Assembly (NCBI RefSeq): GCF_003340345.1
Contig: NZ_PPTQ01000001.1
Location: 1-64,000, forward strand
Origin: Paraeggerthella hongkongensis
GTDB taxonomy: Bacteria > Actinomycetota > Coriobacteriia > Coriobacteriales > Eggerthellaceae
Direction: 5' to 3'
Length of the DNA: 64,000 bases
Shown: one piece after another, positions 1,053 through 64,000 of the stretch
Layout: the number at the start of each line of letters is the position of its first letter
Numbering within the stretch: position 1 is the first letter of the stretch
The notes under the pieces: generated by a model
Database searches by the model: none
Told to the model about the DNA's origin: nothing
The model's input: only the letters and a program-made list of their open reading frames with translations
Position numbers and translations under genes: made by a program

Positions 1053-1748
1053 TCAGCCCAACCTGTACCCGACGCCCCACACCGTCTCGATGAATTCCTG
1101 CGAGGAGTCCACGGCGGCCAGTTTCTTGCGCACGTGCCTGATATGCACCATGACCGTGTTGTTGCTTTGAGGGTTCGCAGGTTCGTTCCATACGCTCTCG
1201 AACAGCGATTGCGATGCCACCGGCCGCCCTTTCGCGCGCAGCAGCTCCGCCAGTATCGCGAACTCCTTCGGCGTGAGCGTGAGCGGTTCGCCGTGCAGCG
1301 AGGCTTCGTGGGCACCCTCGTCGAGCACGATTCCGCTCGATTCCAACAGCGACGGCGTTGACCGCGCATCTGAGGGTTGAGCCGTGCGGCGAAGACGCGC
1401 CCGTACGCGGGCTATCAGCTCGCGCGGCTTGAACGGCTTGACCACGTAGTCGTCGGCGCCCAGCTCGAAGCCGACCACCTTGTCGATCTCCTCGTCTTTC
1501 GCCGTGAGGAAAATGATGGGGACGGCGCTTGTCCTGCGGATCTCGCGACAGCAGGCGAACCCGTCCATACCGGGCATCATGATATCGAGGATGACGAGGT
1601 CGAACCCCTCGCGCTCGAAAACGTCGAGCAGATCGGCGCCCGCGTAGAACACCGCGGGCTCGAAGCCCCGCTCGGAAAGCAGCTGTCCTACCAGGTCAGC
1701 GATGGCCTGCTCGTCATCGCATACGGCCACCCGGTTCCTCGACTCCAC
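1053..1748 (-). CDS. OmpR/VanR-type response regulator
   Basis: DNA-binding response regulator of the OmpR family, partner of the kinase downstream. The receiver domain has the acidic pair (CDDEQ), the phospho-acceptor region LVILDIMMPGMDG and the conserved lysine in DDYVVKPF. The C-terminal winged helix runs from about residue 130 and ends in the usual WGVGYRLG. I chose the GTG at 1748 (VESRNRVAV) because an AGGAAAGGGG ribosome site sits 6 nt before it; the reading frame stays open upstream to 1823, but that part has no homologous look. About 231 residues, normal for the family. Which genes it controls is unknown, though a palindrome lies in its own upstream region. Confidence 0.92.
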   Translation of the reverse strand: MESRNRVAVCDDEQAIADLVGQLLSERGFEPAVFYAGADLLDVFEREGFDLVILDIMMPGMDGFACCREIRRTSAVPIIFLTAKDEEIDKVVGFELGADDYVVKPFKPRELIARVRARLRRTAQPSDARSTPSLLESSGIVLDEGAHEASLHGEPLTLTPKEFAILAELLRAKGRPVASQSLFESVWNEPANPQSNNTVMVHIRHVRKKLAAVDSSQEFIETVWGVGYRLG

Positions 1749-1781
1749 GTCTAGCCCCTTTCCTTGCCTCTCGTTGGATTC

Positions 1782-1787
1782 ATTGTA
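1782..1787 (-). promoter_or_regulatory. -10 element of the response-regulator operon
   Basis: The minus strand reads TACAAT here, 34 nt upstream of the GTG start at 1748. The -35 region is weak. Confidence 0.45.
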
Positions 1788-1826
1788 TCCGCCCCGGTCG
1801 ATCCCCCGGTCGCGGCGACTCAAAAT

Positions 1827-1841
1827 TTAAGGAAAGCTTAA
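1827..1841. promoter_or_regulatory. Candidate operator, TTAAG-N5-CTTAA palindrome
   Basis: A perfect 5-bp inverted repeat (TTAAG GAAAG CTTAA) lies in the divergent region between the response regulator and the first C39-like peptidase gene. It is AT-rich in a GC-rich background. Binding by the neighbouring regulator is an inference from position only. Confidence 0.35.
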
Positions 1842-1967
1842 TACATCGGTTGGCGTTTCTTATGAGACGCGAAAGCTGCCTGCGGGGATACTGGAAGCGA
1901 AGGCTCGCCCGGACCGACGCCCCGCCCCGCGGCGCTCCGCCGCATCGGCCAGTAGAAAGGACCCGCT

Positions 1968-2711
1968 ATGGGCTACACCAATTCGTTCGAGCACGATCGT
2001 CACGGCTATCGGCCCGTCCGCCGCAGCGCGCCAGCTCGACGTGGCACGGCGAAAGGACGGGCCGGCGCCGTCAAGCTGGCCGGGTTGACGGGACTTGTCG
2101 CCGCGCTCGTCGGGGCGTGCTTCTACGCAGCCACCTCGCTCACGACGCTCATCGAGGGCGCGCAGGCAACCGCGAACGCCGGTCCCGCAGCGCAAAGCAC
2201 GCCGCGCAGCGCCTGGCGCATCGGCGAGATGCCGATCCTGTACCAGGAAGATCCCGCATGGTCGAACACGACGTACGCAGGAGACTCCTTCGGGGAAACC
2301 GGCTGCGGCCCCACGTGCATGACCATGGCGTACATAGCTCTGACCGGGAAAGACGATATGACCCCGGCCGATATGGGGGCGTTCTCGGAAAGCCTGGGGG
2401 CGGCATCCACCGAAGGCACCGCCTGGACCTTCATGACCGACGGCGCAGCCCGGCTGGGACTTGCCGCGACCGAGCTGCCCGCCGACGAGGCCAGCATCAG
2501 GCGGGCGATCGTTTCGGGGTCGCCCGTGATATGCAGCGTAGGACCCGGGGATTTCACCACCACGGGGCATTTCATCGTGCTTGCAGGCATCGACCAGCAA
2601 GGCCGGCTCATCGTGCGCGACCCCAACAGTCCCGAGCGCACCGCGCAAAGCTGGGATTTCCAAACCGTTCTCGGCCAATGCAGCGCCATCTGGGCGTACC
2701 AAGCGGCATGA
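1968..2711 (+). CDS. Membrane-anchored C39-like cysteine peptidase
   Basis: 247-residue protein with a basic N-terminus, one membrane segment (about residues 36-57) and a papain-like Peptidase_C39_2 domain outside the membrane. The catalytic cysteine is C113 in ETGCGPTCM, the histidine H201 in GHFIVLAG and the aspartate D218 in VRDPNS. Start ATG at 1968 follows AGAAAGGACCCGCT. Substrate unknown; C39-like domains of this type hydrolyse peptide bonds in extracellular or exported proteins. A paralogue with the same domain but a longer stalk is encoded at 8526-9644. It is transcribed divergently from the two-component system, which may regulate it (inference). Confidence 0.85.
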   Translation: MGYTNSFEHDRHGYRPVRRSAPARRGTAKGRAGAVKLAGLTGLVAALVGACFYAATSLTTLIEGAQATANAGPAAQSTPRSAWRIGEMPILYQEDPAWSNTTYAGDSFGETGCGPTCMTMAYIALTGKDDMTPADMGAFSESLGAASTEGTAWTFMTDGAARLGLAATELPADEASIRRAIVSGSPVICSVGPGDFTTTGHFIVLAGIDQQGRLIVRDPNSPERTAQSWDFQTVLGQCSAIWAYQAA

Positions 2712-3016: not shown

Positions 3017-3784
3017 TTAGAATAAACCGCTCGTGAACAGGAAGTTCAACGATTTCAAGCGCGTCCCAACATGTTCGTAGATCCATTCCTGGCAAAAACG
3101 CAGAACCGCGAAGGCTTCGGAGGGACCCGCTTCCATGTCTTCGATGGCGGAGAACGTAGAGCAGAGCAGGGCTTTGCTCCAGGCTACCACCTCGCCGGGC
3201 ACCAGCTGCGACTCAACCTGGGACGCGCAGCTTGAGCAGAGCACCCCGCCCTCGCGATACGACACGAACACCTCGCTGCGTTCGGCAGAAGCAACGTCGC
3301 AGGCGCATCCCGCGCAGACGCTCAAACTGGGGCGCAAGCCCGCAAACGACACGGTCTTGAGCAGGTGAGCTGCGCAGATCAACGGAGCGCGCGATGCATC
3401 CACCCGTCCCAGAGACGAGAGCGCGGTGCAGGTCAATGCGAACAACCGAGGGCTCTCCAGATCCATCTGCGTAACGCGGTCGAGCAGCTCGGCCATGGGA
3501 GCCGCGCAGGCCGCGTGCTCCATGTCGCGGCGCAAGCGCTCGTTGCTCTCCACCAAGCGCGCTTCCTTCACCACGTCAAGGCTGCGCCCCCGCGCTAAAA
3601 GCACGTCTGCCACCGAATAGAGCTCCAAGCGCGAAGCGAAAGAGCTCGCAGGCTTGCGCGCCCCCTTCGCCACCGCGCGCACCTGCGAACCGTCCTCGAC
3701 GAGCATCGTCAGGATCAGGTCGCTCTCGCCCAGCTTCGTCTTGCGCAGCACGATGCCACGCGCATCGTAGGTTGGCTGAGCCAC
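3017..3784 (-). CDS. recO: DNA repair protein RecO
   Basis: Recombination mediator of the RecFOR pathway; it anneals single strands and helps load RecA. The N-terminal OB-fold begins YDARGIVLRKTKLGESDLI, typical of the family. A four-cysteine zinc-finger-like part appears around residues 155-185 (CAGC and CSSC). 255 residues, normal length. The start codon is GTG at 3784, only 7 nt after the stop of the PASTA-domain gene, with a weak ribosome site, so it is probably translated from the same mRNA. Confidence 0.95.
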   Translation of the reverse strand: MAQPTYDARGIVLRKTKLGESDLILTMLVEDGSQVRAVAKGARKPASSFASRLELYSVADVLLARGRSLDVVKEARLVESNERLRRDMEHAACAAPMAELLDRVTQMDLESPRLFALTCTALSSLGRVDASRAPLICAAHLLKTVSFAGLRPSLSVCAGCACDVASAERSEVFVSYREGGVLCSSCASQVESQLVPGEVVAWSKALLCSTFSAIEDMEAGPSEAFAVLRFCQEWIYEHVGTRLKSLNFLFTSGLF

Positions 3785-3791
3785 GCCGCGC

Positions 3792-5306
3792 CTACGAAAT
3801 GCTCACGATGCTGTTCGCGCTGTCCCAAACGATAACGCCGCTCTTCTGCTTGTACGAGCCGCGCACCGTCTCGCCGTCGAGCGTGGTTATCGCCGCAGCC
3901 GTGATGGTGAAAGCGGTCGTGTCGTTTCCTTGGTACGTTATGCCGTCGACCGACTGGATCGCGTAGGTGGTTCCCCCGATGTTCACCGTACCCGCACTTG
4001 CCAGATACGCCTGCGCCGCCGCCGTCAGCTCGGCCCCGCGCGAACGCGCGATGTTGACGGTAACGCTCGAACCCGACGCAACCTTCTCGCCTGCCGCAGG
4101 CGACGTGCCCAGGATGGTTCCGTCAGCCGCAGCGTCATCGTAAACGTAGGCACTCGTGGCCGTCAGGCCCTCGGCCTCGATCGCAGCAACCGCCTGATCC
4201 CAGGTCATCCCTGTGATATCGGGAACCGTGTATGCAGCGGCCACCGTAACGGTGACGGGCTCGTTCGCCTTGGCCTTCGTACCGGCTTCGGGGGAAACGG
4301 CCAAGACGATGCCTTCGCGCTCGTCTGATTTCTGCGTCACGAACTTCACGTTCTCGAAACCGAATTCCTTCAGCTTCGCAGCGGCTTCGTCGCGCTGGAT
4401 GCCTACCGTTTCGGGCACGACACGCGCTTCCGACACATGTATGACAACCTCGGTTCCCTCGTCTTGGCGCGCGCCGGCGCCCGGGTCCATAAGCAGCACG
4501 ACGCCTTCGGTCTCGTCGGACTTCACCTGCATGGTGCGCACCGCGAAGCCCTTGCCCTCAAGCACGTAGGTGGCGTCGGTCTGCGTCATGCCCACAACAT
4601 TGGGAAGGATCTTTCCGCCCCAAAGCTCCATCTGGTACGTCGCAACCGCTGCGATTCCCGCGGCAGCCACCAAGCATGCGAGCACGATGGCAACCACCTT
4701 GCCCTTGCCGCCCTTCTTCGCGTTCGGATCGGGCGCGCGGAACTCCTTCTGCTTCGGCGCTGCGCCGCCTTCGATACGCGGCATCTCCATCGTGCCGCCG
4801 GAACACCACGACGATTGCGGCGGCACGTAGTTGGAATCGACCAAGCACTCGTCAAGGCCGGAAAGGTCGGCTGTGCGCCCCGCCTCGAAGTCTTCCTGAG
4901 AACGCTTCGGAATGAACGGGGTCAGATCGTCGTCACGCGTCGGCGGCTCCTCGGAAGCCTCATCGGAGACGGCTTCTTCGTCGGACGGGCTGAAATCGAA
5001 CGCGTTGCCGTCTTCGTCGACGTTCACGCCCGCAACGTCTATGGCGGGAAGCTTGGCGGGGTCGAGCGGGCCGGATGATCCCGCCTGCACGCCGGCAGTC
5101 GGCTCTTCCTCGTCGGAAGAGACCGAGCCTGCGAAATCGGGGTCGAGCTCGTCGTCGTTCGCGGCTTCGGGTACAGGCGCAAGCGACTCCCGATCGGCAT
5201 CGACCGCGGCGGCAACCTCGGCTATTTTTCCCGACAGCGGCAGTCCGCATTCGTTGCAGAACTTCGCGCCGTCGCGGTTTTCGGAATGGCAATGAGGACA
5301 GATCAT
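3792..5306 (-). CDS. Zinc-ribbon, PASTA-repeat membrane protein
   Basis: 504-residue protein. An N-terminal zinc ribbon (CPHC at 3-6, CNEC at 17-20) is followed by an acidic, disordered stretch to about 200, one membrane segment (about 203-223), three PASTA repeats (about 233-293, 294-358 and 359-422, starting PNVVGM, PETVGI and PDITGM) and a C-terminal domain of about 80 residues that I do not recognise. PASTA repeats bind peptidoglycan fragments or beta-lactams in Ser/Thr kinases and penicillin-binding proteins. No kinase or transpeptidase domain is present here, so a cell-wall sensor or scaffold is a guess. Cotranscribed with recO. Confidence 0.8.
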   Translation of the reverse strand: MICPHCHSENRDGAKFCNECGLPLSGKIAEVAAAVDADRESLAPVPEAANDDELDPDFAGSVSSDEEEPTAGVQAGSSGPLDPAKLPAIDVAGVNVDEDGNAFDFSPSDEEAVSDEASEEPPTRDDDLTPFIPKRSQEDFEAGRTADLSGLDECLVDSNYVPPQSSWCSGGTMEMPRIEGGAAPKQKEFRAPDPNAKKGGKGKVVAIVLACLVAAAGIAAVATYQMELWGGKILPNVVGMTQTDATYVLEGKGFAVRTMQVKSDETEGVVLLMDPGAGARQDEGTEVVIHVSEARVVPETVGIQRDEAAAKLKEFGFENVKFVTQKSDEREGIVLAVSPEAGTKAKANEPVTVTVAAAYTVPDITGMTWDQAVAAIEAEGLTATSAYVYDDAAADGTILGTSPAAGEKVASGSSVTVNIARSRGAELTAAAQAYLASAGTVNIGGTTYAIQSVDGITYQGNDTTAFTITAAAITTLDGETVRGSYKQKSGVIVWDSANSIVSIS

Positions 5307-56028: not shown

Positions 56029-56172
56029 CTGTCAAAACGGGCGAGTTTTGCGGCGGTTTTCCGCCTTTGAAGAAGCTGCCGGCTGAAGGTGCTTTGCATC
56101 GCACCTGGTCACGAGCTTGTCAGCACCTTTTATCCTGATTCGAGGATCAGCAAAACTCGCCTGTTTTGACAG
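56029..56172. repeat. 144-nt palindromic element C
   Basis: Terminal inverted arms 56029-56051 and 56150-56172 match at 22 of 23 positions (the odd one is a G-T pair in RNA). The interior can fold into further hairpins (GGCGG/CCGCC at 56052-56065; CTGAT/ATCAG before the right arm; AAGGTGCT/AGCACCTT). GTGACCAGG is present on the minus strand (56112-56104). Lies between the glycosyltransferase and selD promoters. Confidence 0.85.
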
Positions 56173-56319: not shown

Positions 56320-56372
56320 CGACCGAAACGCGCCGCCCGACGCGGCGGCCGATGAGCAGAAAGCGACGCATC

Positions 56373-57428
56373 ATGAGCGAAACCGAGCGCATACGCTTAA
56401 CCCGCCTGACCGAAAAAGGCGGTTGAGCAGCGAAGTGGGGTCCGGGTGACCTCGAAGCCATATTGAAGGACATCGCGCCGCCGCCCGACGCCGATCTGCT
56501 GCTGGGATTCGACACGTCCGACGACGCCGCCGTGTACCGCCTCGACGACGAAACGGCCGCCGTGCTCACGCTGGATTTCTTCACGCCCGTCGTGGACGAC
56601 CCTTACGAATTCGGAGCCATCGCAGCGGCGAACGCTCTTTCCGACGTGTTCGCCATGGGCGGCAAGCCCTTGACGGCGCTCAACATCCTCGCGTTCCCTT
56701 GCAGCTTGGGCACGAACGTGGTAAGCGACGTGCTGCGCGGAGGGGCCGACAAGGTGCGCGAAGCCGGAGCGTTCGTGGTGGGCGGCCATTCCATCGAAGA
56801 CGACGAGCCCAAATACGGGCTTTCGGTTTTCGGAACCGTGCATCCCGACCGCATCGTGCGCAACGGCGGGGCGCAGCCGGGCGACGTGCTGTTCTACACC
56901 AAAACGCTGGGATCGGGCATCATGAACGCGGGCTATCGCGCCGGATTGGTCGATGAAGCGGGCATGCGGCCCGTCATTGACTCCATGATGGAACTCAACA
57001 AGGACGCCGCTTGCGCCATGCTCCAAGCGAACGTCCACGCCGCCACCGACGTGACCGGATTCGGGTTGGCAGGGCACCTTCACGAGATGCTTGCCGCAAG
57101 CGGGGCTGCCGCCCGGCTCGACTGGAACGCGCTGCCCCTGTTCGACGGCGTGTACCAGCTGTCCTGCGACTACTGCCGACCCGGGAAGAGCTTCGGCATC
57201 ATCGAGTGGGCCAGCGCGTACGTGTCTTCAGAGGGCCTGGACGACGAGGAATTCGACAACCGCATGGGCGTTCTGTGCGATCCGCAAACCTCAGGCGGCC
57301 TGCTGGTGGCCGTCAGCCCAGACGAAGCCGACGCGTTCTCGGAAGCGTTCGAGCAAAGGACGGGGCGCGCGCCCTCGCGCATCGGCTGGGTGGAAGTGGG
57401 CGAAGCGGGACGCATCAGGATGGTTTGA
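56373..57428 (+). CDS. selD: Selenophosphate synthetase, a selenoprotein (UGA = Sec18)
   Basis: Makes selenophosphate from selenide and ATP. The gene must be read through an in-frame TGA at 56424-56426: from ATG 56373 the protein begins MSETERIRLTRLTEKGG, Sec, AAKWGPGDLE. That aligns with the E. coli GAGCGCK loop, Sec18 taking the place of catalytic Cys17, while Cys19 is Ala here. The rest is a full SelD (DDAAVYRL, TLDFFTPVVDDPYEFG, AMGGKPLTALNI, TDVTGFGLAGHLHEM, CDPQTSGGLLVA). 351 residues. A start downstream of the TGA would lose the active site. Confidence 0.93.
56424..56453 (+). promoter_or_regulatory. Sec codon and putative bacterial SECIS hairpin of selD
   Basis: The UGA is followed after 10 nt by a hairpin (56437-56442 GGGGTC with 56448-56453 GACCTC, loop CGGGT). 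Position and size fit a bacterial SECIS recognised by SelB. The pairing was found by eye. Confidence 0.65.
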
Positions 57429-57469: not shown

Positions 57470-57709
57470 TCAGTACAGGTAGACTTCGTGCATGCCCTCG
57501 AAAGCCAAGCCGCGCTCCCGCAGCGCGGCTTCGAGCACGTCGCGCTCTGCCGCCGGAACGCACCAGGCGATGCCGCAGCCAGCCGCTATCTCCGAAGGCA
57601 CGGGAATGGCTCGACCGGGAATTCCGCCGTCGCGCGCCTGCGACTCCACGGCCAGCGCATCGCTCGAAGACGCGAACGTCGCAACCGCCTTCGGCGTCTT
57701 GCTCCTCAT
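57470..57709 (-). CDS. DUF3343 putative selenium/sulfur carrier-like protein
   Basis: 79 residues of the DUF3343 family, commonly found beside selD, yedF and selenium genes. Two cysteines in the centre (AAGCGIAWCVP) could carry Se or S. Starts inside the end of the cysteine-desulfurase gene (4-nt overlap), so it is coupled to it. Convergent with selD, 41 nt away. Confidence 0.82.
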   Translation of the reverse strand: MRSKTPKAVATFASSSDALAVESQARDGGIPGRAIPVPSEIAAGCGIAWCVPAAERDVLEAALRERGLAFEGMHEVYLY

Positions 57710-58857
57710 CGACCTTCGACCTCCGCCGCTATCTCGGCCACGGCGCGAACCGCCGCGTCCACGTCGGCCTCGGTGTTGAAGGAGCTGAAGCTGAACCGCA
57801 CCGCACCCTGCTCGCGCGTGCCCAATGCCTCATGCATGAGTGGCGCGCAGTGGGCGCCTGCGCGCGTGCAGATGCCGAACTCGGCGTTCAGGATGTCGCC
57901 CACCGTTGAAGAGTCGCACGCTCCCACGTTGAGCGCGACGATCCCGCACCTGCCAGCATCGCCGCCCCCGCCGTACACCCGCACGCCTGCAACGGCGCGC
58001 ACGCCGCGTTCGAACCGTCGGGCAAGCTGGGTCGCTTGGGCGGCAAGCGACGCGACGCCCCGCTCCTCGATGTAGGCCAAGCCCGCCTCCAGCCCTGCGA
58101 TTCCATGGGCGTTGAGCGTGCCCGCCTCCAGACGGTCGGGCATCTGAGCAGGTTGGAATCTGTCGTAGCTGCGCGCGCCCGTGCCGCCAACCTTGAACGG
58201 CCTGACCTCAACATGCGAGGCCACCGCTAGGCCGCCGGTGCCCTGCGGGCCGTACAGGCTCTTGTGCCCGGTGAACGCCGCAACGTCAATGTCGTCGCGC
58301 TCGATGTCGATGTCGAGCAAACCGGCCGTCTGGGCAACATCCGCCACCAGAAGGGCGCCGTGATCGTGACTGATGCGGGCCAATCGGGCGATGTCGTAAA
58401 CGTCCCCAGTCAGGTTCGAGGCATGGGTCACCACGGCAAGCTTCGTGTCCGGGCGAAACGCGGCGTCGAAGGCGTCGTAATCGAGGGAGCCGTCCCGCCC
58501 CACGTCAACGATAGACAAGCCGCAGCCGCGCTCGTCCTGCATGCGGTACAGCGGGCGCAGCGCCGAATTGTGGGAAGCCGCGGTGGTAACCGCATGCGCG
58601 CCCGGCTCCAAAAGGCCGAGCACGGCGGCGTTAAGGGCCTCGGTGGCGTTGCAGGCGAAGGCGATCCGCGCCGGGCCCGCCGCGCCCAGAAGGCGCGCAA
58701 GGCGCTCACGGGCGCGAAAGACCGCCAACCCGGCATCGAGCGAAGCTCCATGCGCGCCCCTGCCTGCACCGCCGAACCCGTCGATGGCGCGGGCGACCGC
58801 CTTCGCGACCTCGGGCGGCTTGCGCGCGGTCGTCGCGGCGTTGTCCAGGTAGATCAT
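57706..58857 (-). CDS. Class V aminotransferase, cysteine desulfurase-like
   Basis: PLP enzyme of the Csd/SufS type (TIGR01977 group). 383 residues: MIYLDNAATTARKP, the histidine in TTAASHNS, the PLP lysine in AFTGHKSLYGPQG, and a C-terminal cysteine loop ICTRAGAHCAPL. The family takes S or Se from cysteine or selenocysteine; being in a selenium locus suggests supply of Se to SelD (inference). ATG at 58857 follows AAGGAAGG. Confidence 0.9.
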   Translation of the reverse strand: MIYLDNAATTARKPPEVAKAVARAIDGFGGAGRGAHGASLDAGLAVFRARERLARLLGAAGPARIAFACNATEALNAAVLGLLEPGAHAVTTAASHNSALRPLYRMQDERGCGLSIVDVGRDGSLDYDAFDAAFRPDTKLAVVTHASNLTGDVYDIARLARISHDHGALLVADVAQTAGLLDIDIERDDIDVAAFTGHKSLYGPQGTGGLAVASHVEVRPFKVGGTGARSYDRFQPAQMPDRLEAGTLNAHGIAGLEAGLAYIEERGVASLAAQATQLARRFERGVRAVAGVRVYGGGGDAGRCGIVALNVGACDSSTVGDILNAEFGICTRAGAHCAPLMHEALGTREQGAVRFSFSSFNTEADVDAAVRAVAEIAAEVEGR

Positions 58858-59500: not shown

Positions 59501-60328
59501 TTAAGACTCCTTCTTCCGGTAAATGAACCAGTACGCCAAGCCCACCAGAACGCCGCCCGCGATGTTGCCAAGGGTAGCCGCCGACAGGTTCGCCAGCATC
59601 CCGCCTAGCGTGACCGCGTCCGCAGCGCCGAAGCCCATGCCGTTCAGAACGAACCCCAACGGCAGCAGGAACATGTTCGCCACGCAGTGCTCGAACCCGC
59701 AGGCGATGAACGCCGACACGGGAAGAAGCACTCCCAGAACCTTATCGGCAACCGTGCGCGCCGAAAAGCCGATCCACACGGCCAAGCATACCAAGACGTT
59801 GCACAAAATGCCCTTGAAGAACAGCGTGATCCAGTCGGGCGACACCTTTCCGGCGGCGATGCTCACCATGGCTTCGCCCACCGCGCCGCCGTTCATCTGA
59901 AACACCTGCGCCATGTACACCATCCCCACGATGACGAGCGCGCCTACCAGGTTTCCGATCCACACTGTGGTCCAGTTCTTCAACGTAGCGCTCCAGCTGA
60001 TCTTGCGCGAAGCCTTAGCGCAGATCAAAAGCGTGTTCCCCGTGAACAGCTCGGCGCCGCAGCACAGCACCAGAACCAAACCCAGGCAAAAGCACACGCC
60101 GCCCACCATGCGCTGCACGGCGAAGGGCATGGCGGGATCGCCCAAAAACACGCAGAAGTACAGGCCGCCGAGCGCGATGAACGCGCCCGCGAGCATCGCC
60201 GAGACGAAGCACTTGCCCAACGGCATGGCCGCCTTCGTCTTGCCAAGCGTTTCGGCTTTCAACGCCGTCTCCGCAGGAGACAGCGCATCGGGCTTGAGAG
60301 CCCTCAAATCCTCGTCGCTCACGTTCAT
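59501..60328 (-). CDS. Formate/nitrite transporter (FNT) family protein
   Basis: 275 residues, six membrane helices. FNT features visible: GAFIALGGLYF in the first helix, GAELFTGNTLL, NLVGALVI, and the conserved histidine in FEHCVANMF. FNT channels move formate, nitrite, hydrosulfide and similar small anions. Its place upstream of yedF suggests transport of formate (for a selenium-dependent formate dehydrogenase) or hydrogen selenide-like ions; this is inference. ATG at 60328 chosen; 60364 is an alternative. Confidence 0.88.
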   Translation of the reverse strand: MNVSDEDLRALKPDALSPAETALKAETLGKTKAAMPLGKCFVSAMLAGAFIALGGLYFCVFLGDPAMPFAVQRMVGGVCFCLGLVLVLCCGAELFTGNTLLICAKASRKISWSATLKNWTTVWIGNLVGALVIVGMVYMAQVFQMNGGAVGEAMVSIAAGKVSPDWITLFFKGILCNVLVCLAVWIGFSARTVADKVLGVLLPVSAFIACGFEHCVANMFLLPLGFVLNGMGFGAADAVTLGGMLANLSAATLGNIAGGVLVGLAYWFIYRKKES

Positions 60329-60621
60329 GGAGCCCGTATCCTCTTCTCTCGTCGCCGACAACACGCCGCTCGCCTGCCGAAGGCCGCAGCATCGTTGCCG
60401 TTCATCCTTGATTCCTCACCGTCCGAGCCTGTTGCAGGCCCGATCACCGAACAACATCGCATTGTTGCACATTCGTCGCGCCGCGCCTACGGGAAATCCG
60501 GCGGAACGGCTTGCGGAAGGTCGTTTCGTGCGCCCTGAAGCCTTCCGAACGGAGCCGCCCCGACCGCCGACGCGGCCCCGCAAGCCGGTTCTTGGCGCGG
60601 GAGCCACGCACGGGCGCGCCT

Positions 60622-60666: not shown

Positions 60667-62145
60667 ATGAAACCCGCTTCCGTTCAAGACATACTCCGAA
60701 CCCTTCCGCAAGTGGAAGAAACGATCAACGCGCCGCAGCTGCGCGCGCTCGATACGCTGCTGCCCCGACGCATCCTGGCCGACTGCGCCCGCGCATCCAT
60801 CGACGAAGCGCGCCAAGAGGTGCTGGCGGGCCGTCGAACCGCCGTGGACGCAGACGCCGTCGCGGATAGCGCATGCGCCCGCGCGCTCGCCAACCTCGCA
60901 CCGTCGCTGCGCCGCGTGATAAACGCCACGGGCGTGGTGGTTCACACGAACCTCGGACGCAGCGCGCTTGCCGAGGAAGCCGTGGAGGCCGTCGTGGAGG
61001 CAGCGCGCGGGTACTCCACGCTGGAGTACGACGTGAACGCCCTTGCCCGCGGCAGTCGCCACGATCATGTGGAGCATCTGATCTGCGCCTTGACCGGGGC
61101 GGAAGCGGCCATAGCCGTGAACAACAACGCCGCCGCCGTCATGATGGTGCTCACGGAGTTCGCCGCCGGGCACGAGGGCGTGGTCTCGCGCGGGGAGCTT
61201 GTGGAGATAGGCGGCTCCTTCCGCATCCCCGACATCATGGCGCTGTCGAACGCGGCCATGGTGGAGGTGGGCACCACGAACAAGACCCATCCGGCCGATT
61301 ACGAGCGCGCCCTCAGCCCGGACACCGCCATGCTGCTGAAAGTGCATCCCTCGAACTACCGCATGGTCGGGTTCACCGAAAGCGTGGGCATCCGCGAGCT
61401 CAGGCGTCTGGCGGACGCCGAAAACGAACGCCGCCGCGCCAACCCGCAGACGCCGCCCCTTCCCGAGGTTATGGTCTACGAAGACCAGGGGTCGGGCGCG
61501 CTGCTGCGACTGGACTGCTTCGGCGATTACGCCGAACCCACGGTGGCGGAATCGCTGCAAGCAGGCGTCGACCTGGTCTCGTTTTCCGGGGACAAGCTGC
61601 TCGGAGGGCCGCAGGCGGGCATCATAGCGGGCTCGAAGCGTCACGTCGACCGCCTGAAGAAGAACCCGCTCGCGCGTGCGCTTCGCCTGGACAAGATGAC
61701 GCTTGCCGCGCTCGAGGCGACGCTGCGCCTTTACCTGGACCCCGAGCGAGCCATGCAGGCCGTCCCGACGCTGCGCATGCTTTCGGAGGACGCGGCCGTC
61801 GTCCGCACGCGCGCCGAGCACCTGAGCGAACAGGTTTCGAAAACCGTAGCCGATCGCTTTGCCCGCATCGACGTGGTGCCGGAAACCGGACGCGCCGGCG
61901 GCGGGGCGCTTCCCATGTGCGACATCGACACCTTCGCCGTGCGCGTCTCGTTCTTGCGGGGCAGCGCGCAAGAATGCGAGGAGCACCTGGTGAAACGGGG
62001 TGCCGTCCCGGTGGTGGGCCGCATCAAGAAAGAGTGCGTGCTGCTCGACGCCCGCACCTTGAGCGAAGAGGATCTTCCCGTGATAGCCGAATCCTTAGGC
62101 GCTTACTTCAACAACCTGGACGCACGGAAGGAGACATGCTCATGA
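60667..62145 (+). CDS. selA: L-seryl-tRNA(Sec) selenium transferase
   Basis: PLP enzyme converting Ser-tRNA(Sec) to Sec-tRNA(Sec) with selenophosphate. 492 residues; VVVHTNLGRSALAEEA, YEDQGSGALL, and the PLP lysine K310 in LVSFSGDKLLGGPQAG. ATG at 60667 follows GAAGAAAGGCAG. Stop overlaps selB start by 4 nt (ATGA). Confidence 0.96.
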   Translation: MKPASVQDILRTLPQVEETINAPQLRALDTLLPRRILADCARASIDEARQEVLAGRRTAVDADAVADSACARALANLAPSLRRVINATGVVVHTNLGRSALAEEAVEAVVEAARGYSTLEYDVNALARGSRHDHVEHLICALTGAEAAIAVNNNAAAVMMVLTEFAAGHEGVVSRGELVEIGGSFRIPDIMALSNAAMVEVGTTNKTHPADYERALSPDTAMLLKVHPSNYRMVGFTESVGIRELRRLADAENERRRANPQTPPLPEVMVYEDQGSGALLRLDCFGDYAEPTVAESLQAGVDLVSFSGDKLLGGPQAGIIAGSKRHVDRLKKNPLARALRLDKMTLAALEATLRLYLDPERAMQAVPTLRMLSEDAAVVRTRAEHLSEQVSKTVADRFARIDVVPETGRAGGGALPMCDIDTFAVRVSFLRGSAQECEEHLVKRGAVPVVGRIKKECVLLDARTLSEEDLPVIAESLGAYFNNLDARKETCS

Positions 62146-64000
62146 GCGCGCCGTCGCATCCCGATCTGGTGCTGGGCACCGCCGGGCACATCGATCACGG
62201 CAAATCGTCGCTCGTGCTCGCGCTTACCGGAACCGATCCCGACCGCCTGTCCGAAGAGAAGAAGCGCGGCATAACCATCGAGCTGGGCTTCGCGCAGCTT
62301 TCCCTGCCAGAAGGCTTGACCATGGGCGTGGTGGACGTTCCGGGCCACGAGCGCTTCGTGCGCCAGATGATCGCCGGTGCCACGGGCATCGACCTGGCTC
62401 TGCTGTGCATCGCAGCCGACGACGGCATCATGCCCCAAACCGTCGAGCACCTTGCCGTGCTGGAGCTTCTGGGCATTTCATCGGTCGTCGTCGCGTTGAC
62501 CAAAACCGATCTGGTCGACGACGAATGGGCGACGTTCATGGCCGACGAGATCCGCAGCCGCCTTGAGACCACGCCGTACGCGGACGCACCCGTGGTACGC
62601 GTTTCCAGCCGAACGGGGCGCGGACTCGACGCGCTCAAGGACGAGTTGGTTCGCGCTGCGCGCGCCACGTCCCGGGTCAAAAAAGGCGCGCACCTGCGCC
62701 TGCCCGTCGACCGGACCTTCACCATCAAAGGCGCGGGCACCGTGGTGACGGGCACGCTTTGGAACGGAGAAGCGTCCGTCGGCGACGAGGTCGAGGTGCT
62801 TCCCGGCGGCCTGCGCACGCGCATCCGCGGCATCCAGGTGCATGGAAGCACGGTCGAGCGCGCCAAAGCCGGCCATCGCGTGGCCTTGAACCTGAACGCG
62901 CTCTCGACGGCCGAGGTGCGTCCGGGCGATTTCCTGGCAACGCCGGGCGCAATGCGCCCGACGGACCGCTTCGATGCCGACCTGACCTATCTGGGAATCC
63001 CTGGTCGAGACGCAAAGCCCCTGGAAAGCGGCTCGCGCGTGCACGTGGCCCACGGGACGCGCGAGGTCACGGCGCGCGTACTGCTCATGGAAGGCCGAAC
63101 GAGCCTCGCGCCCGGAGACCGCGCGCTCGCGCAGATTCGTCTCGACGAGCCCTTGCCCGCCGCATGGCGGGACCGCTTCGTCATACGATCCTACTCTCCG
63201 GTGCGCGTCATAGGCGGCGGCGTGGTGCTGCGCGCGCACCCCCGCCGCACCACCACGCTGTCCGAGCCCGCCCGCCATCTGCTGGAAGCCCTGCGCGCAG
63301 ACGACGAAGCGGCCGTGGTTCAGGCGGCGTTCTCCCTGGCGACGCTGCCCATCCTGGCTGACGAGCTGGCGGAAACCACGGGGCTGGAAGCGTCACGGGC
63401 CACGCGCGAGCTTGAAGCGCTGGCAACCAGGCGCGCGGCCGTGCGCCTGGACGGCCCGCAAACCCGCTACGCGAGCGCGCAGACGCTGCAGAAAGCGCGC
63501 TCGACCATAGAGAACGAGCTGCTGAGGTTTCACGCCCAGAACCCCGATTCCACGGGGGTCGCGAAGGACGCCCTGCGGCAGAAGAGCCTGCCGCGCGCAG
63601 ACGCCGCCTGCTTCGACGCGCTGCTGGCCTACGCAGTCGCCCAAGGCGCCGCCGTGGTGGCGGGCGGCGAGGTCAGCCACCCGCGCGCAGGCGCGGGCGC
63701 ACGCATGAAAGAGGAGCAAGCGGCCAAAAAGCTGGGCGATGCGCTCGCGCAAGCCGCGGGAGCACCGCCGACCATCGCCGATCTTGTGAGCAAAGCAGGC
63801 TTGGAGTCCTCGCTCGGGTACAAGGCGCTCGGAATCTTGGAAAAGCAAGGGCTTGTACGGCGGGTCGGAAAAGACTTCTGCTTCGACGTAGCGGCGCTCG
63901 AAGCCTTCGAGAAAGCCGTGAGGAACCGGCTGGCGCACGGTCCGGCAACCGCCGCCGATCTTAAGGACGCCATGGAGACCAGCAGAAAGTACGCCATCCC
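62142..64000 (+). CDS. selB: Sec-specific elongation factor SelB (3' end beyond window)
   Basis: Delivers Sec-tRNA to UGA codons at SECIS hairpins. At least 619 residues are in the window: G1 GTAGHIDHGKSS, KKRGITIE, VDVPGHERFV, TKTD, EF-Tu-like domains II and III, and winged-helix repeats (the last ends TSRKYAIP). Only the last part of the final winged helix is missing. ATG at 62142 overlaps the selA stop. It should read the UGA in selD. Confidence 0.95.
   Translation, partial: MSAPSHPDLVLGTAGHIDHGKSSLVLALTGTDPDRLSEEKKRGITIELGFAQLSLPEGLTMGVVDVPGHERFVRQMIAGATGIDLALLCIAADDGIMPQTVEHLAVLELLGISSVVVALTKTDLVDDEWATFMADEIRSRLETTPYADAPVVRVSSRTGRGLDALKDELVRAARATSRVKKGAHLRLPVDRTFTIKGAGTVVTGTLWNGEASVGDEVEVLPGGLRTRIRGIQVHGSTVERAKAGHRVALNLNALSTAEVRPGDFLATPGAMRPTDRFDADLTYLGIPGRDAKPLESGSRVHVAHGTREVTARVLLMEGRTSLAPGDRALAQIRLDEPLPAAWRDRFVIRSYSPVRVIGGGVVLRAHPRRTTTLSEPARHLLEALRADDEAAVVQAAFSLATLPILADELAETTGLEASRATRELEALATRRAAVRLDGPQTRYASAQTLQKARSTIENELLRFHAQNPDSTGVAKDALRQKSLPRADAACFDALLAYAVAQGAAVVAGGEVSHPRAGAGARMKEEQAAKKLGDALAQAAGAPPTIADLVSKAGLESSLGYKALGILEKQGLVRRVGKDFCFDVAALEAFEKAVRNRLAHGPATAADLKDAMETSRKYAI

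Follow-up and report, generated by a model that had tools for sequence, protein, structure and literature searches.

In a 2006 survey, no selenoproteins were more widespread than selenophosphate synthetase (SelD) and FdhA, and selenocysteine (Sec)-containing SelD was listed there for Actinobacteria as then classified, e.g., Symbiobacterium and Rubrobacter (PMC1794560); a 2026 review ranks SelD as the second-largest prokaryotic selenoprotein family (PMC13188914). Among 223 reference prokaryote genomes surveyed in 2015, 19% of the SelD genes carried Sec, and its position never varied (PMC4561486). The arrangement that we report here is thus long known and common (PMC4561486, PMC1794560, PMC13188914), and the finding is right but ordinary. 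Eggerthellaceae were not named for Sec-containing SelD in the literature matched by term, so this particular gene may not have been described before.

The gene lies in a stretch of DNA of 64,000 nucleotides that was analysed as a whole (the window; Table 1). It resembles the described bacterial Sec-containing SelD proteins (SelD-Sec/SPS2) in having a TGA at the same single position, an N-terminal selenium-binding loop and the Sec machinery, and we found no difference of substance. SelD of Aquifex aeolicus (2yye, 2zod, 2zau) aligns over the full length, and its loop reads GCAAKVGPGDL where the present protein has GG-U-AAKWGPGDL; the crystallised chain 2yye has Cys at the site of the TGA, and the native Aquifex enzyme has Sec there. 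The SelD of E. coli (3u0o) is of the same enzyme family and length but uses Cys instead of the proposed Sec, and its second Cys (in GCGCK) is replaced by Ala in the present protein.

Read from ATG 56373, the frame runs MSETERIRLTRLTEKGG-TGA-AAKWGPGDLEAILKDI and is otherwise open as far as its stop codon (57426-57428), in agreement with the preliminary description of this DNA. When a residue is put in for the TGA, the product scored 371.8 bits with the SelD equivalog TIGR00476 (cut-off 125; covering positions 1-310 of the 311 in the model), and it was aligned over its full length with 3u0o (E = 1.4e-66) and 2yye (E = 2.4e-62). In the profile model as well as in the solved relatives the match covers residues 5-35, i.e., it continues across the TGA, as expected from the earlier statement that the codons on both sides of it are SelD-like, and the alignment of the 351-residue translation, proposed then as a check, placed the catalytic Cys of 3u0o (E. 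coli Cys17) and that of 2yye exactly on the TGA. The conserved Lys following the proposed Sec and the motifs DDAAV, LSDVFAMGG and TDVTGFG, all of which we take to have catalytic roles in SelD, were found in the translation and the alignment. The closest named relative is the SelD of Paraeggerthella hongkongensis (94% identity). The least certain point of the gene is its start, which is not settled: relatives align from 56373, and further in-frame ATGs at 56352 and 56310 are candidate alternatives.

Table 1. Features of the selD region, the Sec machinery and the related loci discussed in the text (window coordinates unless a contig or locus is given)
Feature	Position	Strand	Remarks
selD, selenophosphate synthetase (selenide, water dikinase)	56373..57428	+	351 aa, one in-frame TGA; start by alignment of relatives
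TGA codon 18, proposed selenocysteine	56424..56426	+	opposite the catalytic Cys of other SelD proteins in the alignment
Region constrained at the RNA level, from codon -1 (GGT) to codon +12 (ATA)	56421..56462	+	synonymous bias, 68 orthologues
Predicted SECIS hairpin, GGGGUC / CGGGU loop / GACCUC	56437..56453	+	fold; pairs kept in relatives
Cysteine desulfurase / probable selenocysteine lyase, TIGR01977 (EF2568 type)	57706..58857	-	396.5 bits, cut-off 377
yedF-like selenium metabolism protein, TIGR03527	58886..59500	-	206.4 bits, cut-off 110; Pfam TusA and DsrE(-like)
Formate/nitrite family transporter (FNT)	59501..60364	-	Pfam Form_Nir_trans 235.2 bits; FocA model just missed
selA, selenocysteine synthase	60667..62145	+	TIGR00474 544.1 bits, cut-off 267.9
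selB, Sec-specific elongation factor	62142..64000	+	TIGR00475 330.5 bits, cut-off 242.25; runs past window end
selC, tRNA-Sec	contig 64157-64249		157 bases beyond window end; 70.6 bits, gathering score 47; anticodon UCA
TGA-containing formate dehydrogenase 1 (L079)	G000:C6:18969-20993		hairpin 3' of TGA, loop GGUCU
TGA-containing formate dehydrogenase 2 (L083)	G000:C1:~102510-103289		~38 kb downstream of selC; hairpin loop GGUCU
Tandem second SelD-like gene in L039 (= G034)	1061-2203	-	named-collection contig L131 or L135 (pair with L040)
Tandem second SelD-like gene in L040 (= G115)	3079-4338	+	named-collection contigs of the L039/L040 pair: L131 and L135

We assign a probability of about 0.96 to the reading that this is an ordinary Sec-containing SelD, in which the UGA of codon 18 is read as Sec via SelB, tRNA-Sec and a downstream SECIS hairpin, which was also the interpretation of the preliminary description and is supported here. 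One inference attached to it was weak. Ala does replace the second Cys of the E. coli enzyme, as had been noted, but it is no special sign that the active site depends fully on Sec, because Ala is the rule at this position in Sec-containing SelD (GG-U-AAK and its relatives, among the wider loci) and is also present in Aquifex 2yye.

The conservation of the TGA was followed in a family survey of 140 genomes, counting the Sec-type orthologues in which the site was read through (n = 68): all 68 Eggerthellaceae sequences had TGA at the position of codon 18, within the motif GG-U-[AS]AKW. A separate named collection of 80 SelD loci had a TGA-type stop at the site in 75 cases and Cys in 5; TAA or TAG never occurred there and Cys was the only substitute. 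In surveys of the class and the phylum, the TGA form was present in many families and uninterrupted forms were scattered (e.g., in families f2 and f3 of the order), the site residue having been read individually in a minority of the latter. A Cys-type SelD with GGCGAKLGP on a long branch was observed in G111, a genome assigned to the family (L041:3311-4339), where selA, selB, yedF and a desulfurase gene adjoin it; horizontal transfer or a misplaced contig is a possible explanation.

These comparisons bear on two alternatives. An in-frame stop is the usual sign of a pseudogene or of a sequencing error, but nothing else interrupts the frame, and this TGA recurs in independent assemblies across many genera; this explanation, to which we would give next to no probability, is refuted by the orthologues. 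The other is termination at the TGA, with a functional protein that starts downstream of it, e.g., at TTG 56463, without the selenium-binding loop. A mechanical ORF caller indeed reported an ORF of 321 aa from that TTG, as the preliminary description had predicted for automatic annotation (our result is for the mechanical caller only), and the match to one solved Aquifex chain, 2zau, starts no earlier than query residue 48. Against a true stop stand the absence of TAA and TAG among the 80 wider loci, with Cys as the sole replacement, and the conservation at the protein level of GG-U-AAKWGPGDL around the TGA in relatives down to 41-55% identity, and we regard it as highly improbable, if slightly less so than a pseudogene or error.

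A hairpin had been said to follow the TGA, and a stem of 6 bp was found (56437-56442 with 56448-56453), beginning 10 nt 3' of the TGA and with a loop G at 18 nt. Its support is comparative. The stability of the hairpin did not differ significantly from that of shuffled sequence (z = -0.79 for 56435-56455 and -0.06 for 56424-56460), and single-sequence folds of the region differ among relatives; for both reasons folding energy was set aside as an argument. An Rfam scan of the window gave no matches. Codon bias was measured against the synonymous codon usage of the gene itself at 263 testable positions in the 68 orthologues, and the five most strongly biased positions (GGT at -1, GGT at +5, ATA at +12, CCG at +6 and CTC at +9) all lie within codons -1 to +12 relative to the TGA, a stretch that includes the predicted hairpin. 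At codon -1, GGT was present in 64 of the 68 orthologues, compared to a background share of about 13% of Gly codons. This bias supports selection at the RNA level for the predicted SECIS, and the CGGGU loop together with the codon constraint corresponds to the bacterial SECIS pattern of a hairpin shortly 3' of the TGA with a G early in the loop.

When the ungapped alignment was given to RNAalifold, no consensus helix emerged, partly because eight sequences take a bulged register. A direct count of the pairs then showed that each of the 6 forms in 60-67 of the 67 distinct sequences. GCT at +5 is accompanied by GAG at +8 in two sequences (the G-C pair becoming C-G), and AGT at +5, present in eight sequences, is in every case accompanied by Gln (CAA or CAG) at +10, which would allow a stem of 7 pairs with one bulged base; either of these compensatory changes may have arisen once and then been inherited. 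GGT 56421-56423 and ATA 56460-56462, both outside the hairpin, are under strong synonymous constraint throughout the family, and a proposed lower stem of CGGU with AYUG, which would include them and their neighbours, forms its full 4 pairs in only 42% of the sequences.

The genes expected around such an enzyme are present. The claim that selA and selB lie nearby was confirmed by the TIGR00474 and TIGR00475 matches downstream of selD, and tRNA-Sec completes the Sec machinery expected with a Sec-containing SelD. It also encodes two formate dehydrogenase alpha-type proteins with an in-frame TGA (R-V-U-H, in the usual V-U-H-[AS]-P-T context). As in the selD-sclA-yedF group of Enterococcus and Clostridioides (PMC2276186), TIGR01977 and TIGR03527 genes adjoin selD; the desulfurase-like product did not reach the cut-off of the SclA model NF040779 (303.2 bits compared to 525), and the locus differs from that group in that Sec genes are present and YqeB, the marker of selenium-dependent molybdenum hydroxylases, was not found in the genome. 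A search of the genome for SelU gave only a partial match of 24 residues, far below the cut-off, so with neither SelU nor YqeB found Sec is the only use of selenium identified in this genome.

The intergenic DNA 5' of selD contains an interspersed repeat of about 145 bases (window 56030-56171). It has inverted ends of 22 bases (one mismatch), each with CAAAAC-N6-GTTTTG, about 35 further copies occur in the genome, mostly at 69-79% identity, and the Rfam scan of the window did not match it; it may be classed as MITE-like or REP-like.

For the Sec-containing SelD, the following route may be proposed. SelB and tRNA-Sec would decode the UGA of codon 18 as Sec, directed by the SECIS hairpin just 3' of it. 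The Sec in the N-terminal loop (GG-U-AAKW) would then act with the conserved Lys to convert selenide and ATP to selenophosphate, from which SelA would produce charged tRNA-Sec. Since SelA charges tRNA-Sec with selenophosphate, new SelD would need pre-existing SelD. The actual recoding of the UGA, the catalysis by SelD and this positive dependence loop are what we infer from what is established for this enzyme family.

The dependence raises the question of whether the UGA doubles as a selenium-sensing switch, at which low Sec-tRNA would cause an early stop so that the level of SelD tracks selenium. Several points agree with it: the pathway suggests that the product of SelD is needed for its own synthesis, the 2.86-Mb genome has a single SelD copy (a second SelD acting as a Cys-containing back-up is excluded by this count), and the constrained RNA region reaches from codon -1 as far as +12. 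An earlier work that several papers cite has, by its title, autoregulation in selenocysteine metabolism as its subject. The SECIS element alone, however, fully explains the RNA constraint, and a positive loop is by itself no useful sensor, so that we consider a switch unlikely. Somewhat more doubtful still is the stronger form, in which the extended SECIS (GGU at -1 to AUA at +12) would make the sole SelD a bistable on/off gate responsive to selenium.

Outside the window, two Eggerthellaceae MAGs carry a second, intact SelD-like gene (SelD2) directly after selA and the Sec-containing SelD. The Sec position is occupied by Ala or Ser in the two copies, whereas only Sec or Cys was reported there in the prokaryotic SelD survey (PMC4561486), and of the acidic motifs LSDVFAMGG is changed to LSRLYAAGV or LAPLYAVGV and TDVTGFG is lost. 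They are 54.5% identical to each other and form a monophylum (100/100 support). Both score above the cut-off of the SelD model (about 235 bits compared to 125) and would therefore be annotated as SelD. When SelD2 was used in a class-wide search, the best matches were ordinary SelD genes. In these two MAG cases SelD2 looks like a probable SelD pseudoenzyme, an inactive partner of SelD, or like a gene with a new role, and it is a more unusual lead than the Sec-containing SelD of the window.

For the Sec-containing SelD itself, the main relevance is to annotation: a start placed after the TGA drops the catalytic residue, and the gene should run from 56373, with codon 18 annotated as Sec. It is also an instance of a circularity discussed in the literature, in which selenium use depends on what it itself produces, and the codon constraint across the family gives clear comparative access to the SECIS of this lineage.
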